NCBI RefSeq assembly: GCF_030252325.1
Contig: NZ_CP126981.1
Span: 1,302,001-1,366,000, forward strand
Reading direction: 5' to 3'
Origin: Candidatus Mycobacterium wuenschmannii
GTDB taxonomy: Bacteria > Actinomycetota > Actinomycetes > Mycobacteriales > Mycobacteriaceae
Length of the DNA: 64,000 bases
Shown: one piece after another, positions 6,726-9,026 of the stretch
How positions within the stretch are numbered: the first letter of the stretch is position 1
Layout of the letters: every line of letters begins with the position of its first letter
Notes under the pieces: model-generated
Database searches by the model: none
What the model was told of the DNA's origin: nothing
The model's input: the letters and a program-made list of their open reading frames with translations, nothing else
Program-made: the position numbers and the translations under genes

Positions 6726-7019
6726 ATGGCTGAGCCCCCGACCGCCGACGACGGGCACTACCTGCTGATCGACGGCCGCAAGTGGCGAGCCACCGACCCC
6801 AAGATTCCACAAGACCGGCGTGACGAGCTGGTACGCATCTTGATGGCCTGGCGTCGAAAGGTGCGCTCCACCAAAGGGACTCCACAGGAGTCGACGGCCC
6901 GGGCCGGTGTGCATGCCGCGAAGGTCGCGCTGGGGGAGCGCGGCGCGCCGCCCTGGTGGGAGCAGACCGACGCGCAACGCGCCGCCCGATGGCAGGCCTC
7001 GGTTCCCGAACCGGATTAG
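6726..7019 (+). CDS. small conserved mycobacterial protein of unknown function
   Basis: A 97-residue soluble, charged protein starting at ATG 6726 (MAEPPTADDGHYLLIDG). It has a central basic helix (VRILMAWRRKVRSTKGT), the motif HAAKVALGERGAPPWWE and a DAQRAARWQ tail. The sequence resembles a family of short actinobacterial proteins that I remember only as hypothetical, sometimes mislabelled as a Tol-related transporter. No membrane segment or signal is visible, so I do not support that label. The longer in-frame extension back to 6507 lies antisense to the methyltransferase and was rejected. Confidence 0.65.
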   Translation: MAEPPTADDGHYLLIDGRKWRATDPKIPQDRRDELVRILMAWRRKVRSTKGTPQESTARAGVHAAKVALGERGAPPWWEQTDAQRAARWQASVPEPD

Positions 7020-7075: not shown

Positions 7076-7291
7076 ATGAGCGACAACACGCAACAAGCGC
7101 CGAACGAGACGGCGGAGAAAGACCCGGCGGACTGGGTGACCGGCGATGAGCCGATGACGGGGCCGCAGCGCAGCTACCTGCACACACTCGCTCAGGAAGC
7201 CGGGCGCGAGGTGCCCGACGGTCTCAGCAAGGCCGACGCGTCAAGCCTGATCGACGAGTTGCAGCACAGCACCGGGCGCGGCGCGGAATAG
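7076..7291 (+). CDS. DUF3072 domain protein
   Basis: A 71-residue acidic protein whose second half (DEPMTGPQRSYLHTLAQEAG, then a SKADASSLIDELQ helix) is the DUF3072 pattern found in many actinobacterial short proteins. The start at ATG 7076 is well supported by a near-perfect Shine-Dalgarno sequence, GGAGGTGATC at 7061-7070. The first 25 residues are polar and probably disordered. Molecular function is unknown. A LexA-like box lies upstream and a hairpin begins right after the stop codon, so it is likely a single-gene transcript. Confidence 0.75.
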   Translation: MSDNTQQAPNETAEKDPADWVTGDEPMTGPQRSYLHTLAQEAGREVPDGLSKADASSLIDELQHSTGRGAE

Positions 7292-7329: not shown

Positions 7330-7350
7330 TGATAACGACAACCATTGTCA
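7330..7350 (+). promoter_or_regulatory. Zur/Fur-family-like operator upstream of PPE gene
   Basis: An AT-rich, 21-bp imperfect palindrome begins TGATAACGA and ends ATTGTCA. Read on the minus strand it contains TGACAAT-G-GTTGTCG, which fits the 7-1-7 Zur pattern TGAnAAT-N-ATTnTCA perfectly in one half and at 5 of the 6 defined positions' core in the other with A to G changes at the ends. It lies 50 nt before the PPE start codon in otherwise GC-rich DNA. Zur binding is inferred from sequence resemblance and from the histidine-rich product downstream. Confidence 0.5.
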
Positions 7351-7400
7351 TTTAGCGTGGCGGCGACCCGATAGCTTGTCCAGCCCAGGAGTTGCCGGAG

Positions 7401-9026
7401 ATGACGTCGCCTGCCGCAGGCACCCTGCTGTCCGCACCAATCTGGATGGCCTCGCCGCCTGAGGTGCATTCGGCGCTGTTGAGTAGCGGGCCGGGGCCGG
7501 CCTCGTTGTTCGCCGCAGCGGCGGCGTGGCGGTCGATGAGCGTCGAGTACGCCTCGGTTGCCGAGGAACTCGCCGAGGTTCTGGCCTCGACGCAGGCGGC
7601 GGCCTGGCAGGGGCCCAGTGGGGAGTCCTACGTGTCGGCGCACGCCCCGTACCTCGCGTGGCTGACGCGGGCCAGTGCGGACAGCGCCGCGTCCGCGACG
7701 CAGCACGAGACAGCGGCGACGGCCTACACCGGAGCGCTCGCCGCGATGCCGACGTTGCCGGAGCTGGCCACCAACCATGTTGTCCATGGAGCGCTGATTG
7801 CGACGAACTTCTTCGGCATCAACACGATTCCGATTGCCGTCAACGAAGCCGACTACGTGCGCATGTGGGTTCAGGCCGCCACCACCATGACGACCTATCA
7901 AGCGGTGGCAGATGCGGCCGTGGCCGCCGCGCCCCTGACCGACGAACCGCCGCCGATCCTGCGGGCCGATGCCACCGACCCGCACGATCATGACCACGAC
8001 GACCACGACGACGGCGAACACCACGGAGACGAGGACGATCACCATGACCACGAGCATGGGTTCGACAGCCCACTGAATCAGTTCGTCGCGGAGATCCTGC
8101 GTCTTGGTGGAATCAATTGGGATCCGGCCGAGGGGACCCTCAACGGATTGCCGTTCGAGGACTATGCCAGCCCCTCGGATCCGCTGTGGTGGACCGCGCG
8201 ATCACTCGAATTGTTCTCCGATTTCCAGCAATTCGGGAACCTGCTCGCGGAGAACCCGACGGCCGCCTTCGAGTTTGTCTCCGAACTCGTGCTGTTCGAC
8301 TACCCGACGCATCTCGCGCAGCTGACGAGTTGGCTCCCGGCGCAACCACAGTTGTTCGTCGCGCCGTTCGTCCTTGCGGTTGCTCCGTTCGGCGCGCTGA
8401 GCGGTCTTGCGGGTCTGGCAGGCGTGACGCCGCCACCCCCCGCGCCGGTGCTTGTACAGCCCGCCCCGCCCGTGTTGGCGGTGGCCGGGGCCACGGTACT
8501 GCCGGGTGCGGCCCCGACTGCGTTCTCGAGCGCTAGCCCGACGACGGCGCCCGCGCCGGCCAGCACCGCGACCGCCCCGGCGTCACCGGCGCCGCTGGCC
8601 GCGAATGCATCCCCACCGTTTCCGCCTTATGCCGTCGCCCCACCGGCTATCGGGTTCGGTGCCAAGAACAGCGCAGCCGCTGCGGCCGGGGCGAAACGAC
8701 CTGCACCGGAAGCCGATTCGGCTGCGGTGGCAGCGGCGACGACGGCACGCAAAGCGGCGCGCACGCGACGACGCCAACAGCTGCGGCGCCACGACAACGC
8801 CGACGAGTTCATGGACATGAATGTCGACGTCGCCCCGGAATGGGAGAGGCCTGCGCCCACCGGCTCCGAAAGAGGTTCCGGCACAATGGGCTTCAGTGGT
8901 GTAGCAACCAAGAGTGCTGCCACGGCGGCGGGCTTGGCGACCATTGCCGGCGACGAGTTCGGCGACAGCCCTCGCATGCCGATGATCCCGAGCGGCTGGA
9001 ACCCGGCCGACGACACTGAACGCTAG
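7401..9026 (+). CDS. PPE family protein (PPE-PPW) with His/Asp-rich segment
   Basis: A 541-residue PPE protein. Residues about 12-180 form the helical PPE domain ([19 protein letters not shown], then [19 protein letters not shown] and [19 protein letters not shown]), known to pair with PE partners for ESX secretion. Residues about 193-220 are a His/Asp/Glu run with ten histidines in 28 residues, a likely metal-binding segment. A Pro/Ala-rich middle follows, then GFSGV and PMIPSGW near the C-terminus, the signature of the PPE-PPW subfamily. ATG 7401 is preferred over TTG 7392; a GGAG lies just before it. No PE gene is adjacent. The Zur-like box upstream suggests zinc-dependent control. Confidence 0.9.

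Follow-up and report, generated by a model that had tools for sequence, protein, structure and literature searches.

A Zur-boxed PPE-PPW protein with a histidine-rich loop as a candidate zinc-capture protein of mycobacteria

In the window, the whole 64 kb stretch of DNA analyzed here, the gene at 7401–9026 (plus strand; P0001) encodes a PPE-PPW protein that combines a Zur operator upstream of its start codon with a loop of ten histidines amid aspartate and glutamate, and we read it, with a probability of roughly 60%, as a PPE protein that is repressed by Zur, exported by a type VII system, and equipped with a disordered loop that captures Zn2+ to be taken up. Seen in the sequences themselves are the operator, the regulator, the domain plan, and the joint conservation of loop and operator; that Zn-Zur represses the gene, that the protein is exported, that the loop binds metal, and that zinc is taken up are steps that we infer. 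When zinc is plentiful, Zn-Zur (FurB) bound at 7333–7353 would repress the PPE gene; when zinc is low, the PPE would be made together with an ESX-3-type system, an MRF-type GTPase, and a Cys-poor L28, and it would be exported as a PE/PPE-type substrate, most likely via ESX-3, given that its PPE domain most resembles PPE4. The His/Asp/Glu loop, held between the PPE bundle and a second helical region, would then capture Zn2+ in or on the outer membrane and enrich it locally where a PE/PPE route takes it up (compare Ca2+ and PE15/PPE20, below). The protein is thus proposed as a probable part of mycobacterial zinc collection; as of 2013, by the account of one paper, no zinc uptake systems of mycobacteria had been identified (PMC3796483). 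In a genome in which no Znu was found, this Zur-boxed PPE and its candidate metal-binding loop narrow the question to a single testable gene and a single loop and, if the reading is true, would extend the idea of PE/PPE nutrient channels to zinc.

The reading frame runs from the ATG at 7401 to a stop at 9026 (541 residues), and the assignment of its product to the PPE-PPW subfamily in the first-pass annotation is borne out by Pfam: an N-terminal PPE domain (PF00823) is found at residues 15–177 (7443–7931, plus strand; E = 2.8e-61, 206.8 bits against a cut-off of 26) and a C-terminal PPW motif (PF18878) at residues 489–533 (8865–8999, plus strand; E = 8.5e-16, 58.2 bits against a cut-off of 27), i.e., both features that define the subfamily. 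The nearest solved relative of the PPE domain in a PDB sequence search is PPE4 in the PE5-PPE4-EspG3 (ESX-3) complex (6uuj; E = 3.4e-69), and in Foldseek, PPE chains make up all nine rows with E ≤ 0.001, the 6uuj rows giving 66–67% identity. An AlphaFold2 model built on a 56-sequence alignment has a mean pLDDT of 59.7 and a pTM of 0.39, and we therefore use only its well-scored parts. These place the helices of the PPE bundle at residues 14–176 and predict a second helical region after the His loop at residues 224–320 (8070–8360, plus strand), with block pLDDT values of 79–95 over residues 221–300, a drop to 66 and 58 over residues 301–320, and values below 50 beyond residue 320.

The operator is the 21-mer TAACGACAACCATTGTCATTT at 7333–7353, which ends 47 nt 5′ of the PPE ATG; its 15-bp core at 7336–7350 is the near-palindrome CGACAAC-C-ATTGTCA, in which five of the seven arm positions are complementary when counted by eye. 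To score it, we used a 21-base position weight matrix (PWM) made from the 19 Zur boxes in Table 2 of PMC4298942, boxes that are predictions by that paper's own account, with a mutation test described there for only one. The window box scores 25.7, and the runner-up place in the 64 kb scores 4.7. When the published boxes are left out one at a time, they score 24.9–43.3, a range that includes the window box; by this measure, the operator is at the weak end of known Zur boxes, yet far from background. The loci of real relatives (868 kb, with some overlap between loci) contain 83 places that score 15 or more, of which 82 reach 20, and dinucleotide-step shuffles of the same loci (4.34 Mb) yield a single place of at least 20, with a maximum of 20.4. 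The box of the orthologue in locus L001 is identical to that in the window. On the PWM scores, a genome pattern search, and orthologue identity, a Zur operator at 7333–7353 is strongly supported, and both the Zur-type near-palindrome that had been proposed upstream of the start codon and its standing above random sequence hold up. A chance box is ruled out by the PWM score, the shuffles, and the conservation. A box belonging to a divergent neighbor is likewise ruled out: the upstream genes at 6726–7019 and 7076–7291 are co-directional with the PPE gene, and both are present, in swapped order, in L001.

The same operator type recurs at a small number of sites in the source genome. A 15-base pattern allowing up to two mismatches matches 48 places in the 5.1 Mb genome (the reversed pattern, seven), and PWM scores that include the flanks were obtained for roughly half of these, namely 15 with surrounding loci, those lying in further extracted stretches, and two in the window. 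Among these scored sites, values of at least 20 occur only at the window PPE gene (25.7), the start of eccA (32.4), a PE-PPE-WXG100 (PE-PPE-esx) cassette (33.6), and a pair of genes for L28 and a CobW-family protein, which has two boxes (34.1 and 32.8). Weaker sites score 18.2 (3219474), 16.8 (4699332, the start of another PPE gene), 15.1 (3423702), 15.1 (386525), 13.7, and 12.5. A whole-genome search with a degenerate Zur 21-mer and up to three mismatches returns six places, namely the five strong ones and 386525, compared with one for the reversed control.

The identity of the other boxed genes speaks for the window PPE gene being a Zur target. EccA was identified by TIGR03922; an LCM-type methyltransferase gene lies before it, and genes for PE, PPE, and two WXG100 proteins come after. 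We call this cluster ESX-3-type on the basis of its gene order and the likeness of its PPE to the PPE4-like domain of the window protein. For the PPE of the cluster (L085), the preceding 400 bases hold no box; the box of the cluster is the one before eccA. The CobW-family gene is assigned as ribosome hibernation factor-recruiting GTPase MRF by NF047431 (554.6 bits, cut-off 375) and is divergent from the L28 gene, with the two Zur boxes between them. The L28 beside MRF has one Cys and no CXXC, and the other L28 copy has four Cys and two CXXC, a difference that fits a zinc-independent substitute. FurB/Zur itself is encoded at G000:C1:1639254, directly behind an ArsR-type gene, and its closest solved relative is M. 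tuberculosis FurB (2o03; E = 8.9e-72). The source genome gave no match to ZnuA (PF01297) or to the ABC-3 permease (PF00950); of 14 control genomes, 11 matched the former and 13 the latter. The suggestion that the window box would score alongside the other Zur sites of the genome holds for eccA, L28/MRF, and the PE-PPE-esx cassette; with neither ZnuA nor the ABC-3 permease found, the genome offered no znu site for comparison. It should be noted that ESX-3 of M. smegmatis is described as being under IdeR, not Zur (PMC3796483), and the regulon thus differs between species. As a separate observation, the PE-PPE-WXG100-WXG100 cassette with the box of 33.6 (G000:C1:785378–788091; L139) is a second one, located away from the ESX-3-type cluster, and its Esx-like proteins are identical to those of that cluster at 96/97 and 97/97 residues.

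The loop occupies residues 192–219 (7974–8057, plus strand), the best 28-residue stretch of the protein by residue count, with 10 His and 14 Asp/Glu; shuffling the protein's own residues reached 10 His per 28 residues in 0 of 20,000 trials. The ten-His run after the PPE domain in the first-pass annotation is confirmed in content, and its boundaries move by one residue from the 193–220 given there. AlphaFold2 predicts the loop to be disordered (block pLDDT 46–50, with low confidence over residues ~191–220). Disordered loops rich in His, Asp, and Glu bind many ions, and such a loop might act as a zinc store on the cell surface or within the envelope, or protect the cell from zinc toxicity, with no role in import; we consider this improbable, given that a Zur operator predicts expression in zinc shortage, when detoxification would be needless. 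The affinity of His-rich loops can extend to Ni, Co, or Cu, and the loop chemistry does not discriminate between metals. A loop for nickel, cobalt, manganese, or iron, with the Zur box coupling the gene to general metal stress, would be in keeping with the report that ESX-3 of M. tuberculosis is under both IdeR and Zur (PMC3796483), but the operator fits Zur boxes (in a scan made with the Zur matrix alone), and we regard this possibility as very improbable. Among the titles of open-access papers on PPE proteins and histidine-rich regions, zinc, Zur, or ESX-3, none refers to a His-loop PPE.

Loop and operator go together among close relatives of the window protein. Five or more His per 28 linker residues occur in 36 of a set of 121 proteins (the query and the 120 matches listed out of 4619, which include the gene of the window itself), and the loop end H[DE]HGFDS is common to every one of the 36; the other 85 have at most three His, including one (P0041) that carries H[DE]HGFDS but falls outside the His count. 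A DNA pattern for H[DE]HGFDS matches in 14 of 198 genus genomes, in 12 cases within a PPE gene (that of the window included) and in two within unrelated genes. Each of these 12 His-loop PPE orthologues, again including the window gene, has a Zur box, with scores of 20.8–33.5, in accordance with the co-occurrence of His run and box that the first-pass annotation had proposed to check. One of the 12 loci is the window gene, six are new relative to the collection of 80 loci described below, and five share box and linker or leader with L001, L003, L005, L008, and L017. Judged from these comparisons, the His loop marks an orthologous PPE group, and an oddity of one genome is ruled out by the 12 genomes that have a His-loop PPE with a box. 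The neighborhood of the gene in L001 is that of the window and those in L003/L004 and others differ, which indicates that the His-loop PPE gene has moved.

The upstream regions of the 12 orthologues also share a leader stretch. In the window, a Shine-Dalgarno AGGAG at 7387–7391 (plus strand), assigned from its spacing (9 nt 5′ of the ATG) and the alignment of the 12 regions, lies in this stretch. Nine of the 12 leaders (L144, L145, L148, L149, and L151–L155) have a short ORF of ~18–21 codons after the conserved AGGAG, and the stop codon of this ORF and the PPE start codon overlap; the window (7387–7430) and two other orthologues have the PPE start itself after AGGAG, and the N-terminus of the window protein looks like a fusion of the leader ORF and the PPE.

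Beyond this group, box and His run were compared across PPEs in a collection of loci obtained with peptide patterns, the His run among them, of which the best 80 were kept, so that His-rich relatives are over-represented in the counts that follow. Of 143 PPE starts (duplicates included, two rows having too little upstream sequence), 49 are preceded, at a distance of up to 400 bases, by a place scoring 20 or more, and the next best scores 11.3. After removal of duplicates and of PPEs with <58% identity, a tree of the N-terminal domain was made for 107 rows; with a His run defined as at least five His in 30 residues, 12 rows have both box and run, 35 the box alone, one the run alone, and 59 neither. 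The association is significant in a Fisher test that ignores the relatedness of the rows (p = 1.8e-4), and a tree-based pair test offers two usable pairs only, too few to decide the matter. A box is thus present within 400 bases upstream in 12 of the 13 His-rich rows, and the remaining one (L014_8307) is located downstream of a boxed PPE in the same orientation. The linker holds the run in each of the 13, within ~20 residues of a P-x-I stretch after the PPE domain, and PPEs of other lineages under a Zur box have their His runs at this same linker position. Downstream of the His-rich PPE in L055 come an LCM-type methyltransferase and then EccA, and in L076 a similar methyltransferase comes next. 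Because the His trait changes at least seven times on the tree, which is weakly supported (42 of 104 branches open), recurrent gain of the run in PPEs is suggested, with repeated loss as the alternative. We can propose only tentatively that a distinct class of PPEs gained a metal-capturing His loop more than once in the same linker under Zur and that this class is the device by which zinc enters mycobacteria through the outer membrane, if not in all of them then in those that, like the source of the window, have no Znu match.

Several of the individual loci deserve mention in their own right. Two His-rich PPEs of another lineage (L069 3374 and L076 3384) have boxes of 29.0 and 28.2 and the run at the same linker position, and a Zur-boxed PPE of M. 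peregrinum (L078, 6001–7533) has 14 His in 30 residues in a near-perfect Asp-His repeat. A contig labeled as an Opitutia MAG (L080) carries a mycobacterial-type PPE, perhaps through a binning error. Among 31 records of plasmid PPEs, none covers 80% of the PPE-PPW protein; on the M. avium plasmid pHP17a (L143), a PPE gene adjoins non-ribosomal peptide synthetase, cysteine-synthase-like, and ArsI/CadI-type genes.

Several points speak against the zinc-uptake reading. Besides the IdeR control of ESX-3 in M. smegmatis, the binding of other metals by His-rich loops, and the functions reported for PPE3 (below), 35 of the 47 boxed PPE rows lack a His run, and Pfam found no PE domain among the window neighbors of the gene that were scanned, though a PE encoded elsewhere may take that part. 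The rows without a run rule out that a Zur box needs a His run, and they are half of what the first-pass annotation had named as telling against its proposal, namely, a box kept without the run; the His run is therefore an elaboration that arose among PPEs which already had the Zur box. The boxed rows without a run also fit a different account, in which the protein is a Zur-regulated PPE for general nutrients (PPE3-like, for organic nutrients or iron/heme) and the run is a tolerated low-complexity expansion of the linker with no role in metal binding. The broad nutrient defects described for PPE3 mutants (PMC13102306) and the variation of the run, from 5 to 14 His and down to the nearly bare Asp-His repeat of L078, agree with it. 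However, a tolerated expansion does not sit well with an H[DE]HGFDS end common to all 36 His-rich proteins in the set of 121, or with all 13 His-rich rows of the 107 being boxed or behind a boxed PPE, and we find this account doubtful. Zinc capture by a Zur-controlled PPE is the reading that we prefer.

Envelope proteins with His-rich stretches that are used in zinc shortage include ZnuA-type zinc-binding proteins and the streptococcal polyhistidine-triad proteins; the window PPE differs from the former in that a Pfam scan finds no ZnuA domain (PF01297) in it. Zur control of PPE genes has been described before (PMC4298942, PMC13284343, PMC13102306). Like the window gene, MAP3737 and MAP3765 of M. 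avium subsp. paratuberculosis are PPE genes with listed Zur boxes, and zinc chelation is reported to raise their expression 75.7-fold (a value marked # in the source) and 24.4-fold, respectively (PMC4298942); as for a loop, which can be compared here by text alone, the word “histidine” is absent from the main text of that paper. PPE3 of M. tuberculosis (Rv0280) is likewise described as a Zur-regulated PPE, but the links reported for it are to the use of lactate and other nutrients and, with reservation, to ESX-5; zinc is not among them (PMC13102306). PE15/PPE20 of M. tuberculosis, in which the PPE is a PPE-PPW protein, is associated with ESX-3 and reported to bind and import Ca2+ (PMC9731449); it differs in its ion, in its PE partner, a pairing not seen at the window locus, where the scanned neighbors include no PE, and in that “histidine” does not occur in the text of that report. 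PPE4 of the PE5-PPE4-EspG3 complex is alike in the PPE domain, at the identity given above, and its solved chain of 178 residues consists of that domain only. PPE genes under Zur are thus already known, and what appears to be new here is the His loop in a conserved Zur-boxed PPE.
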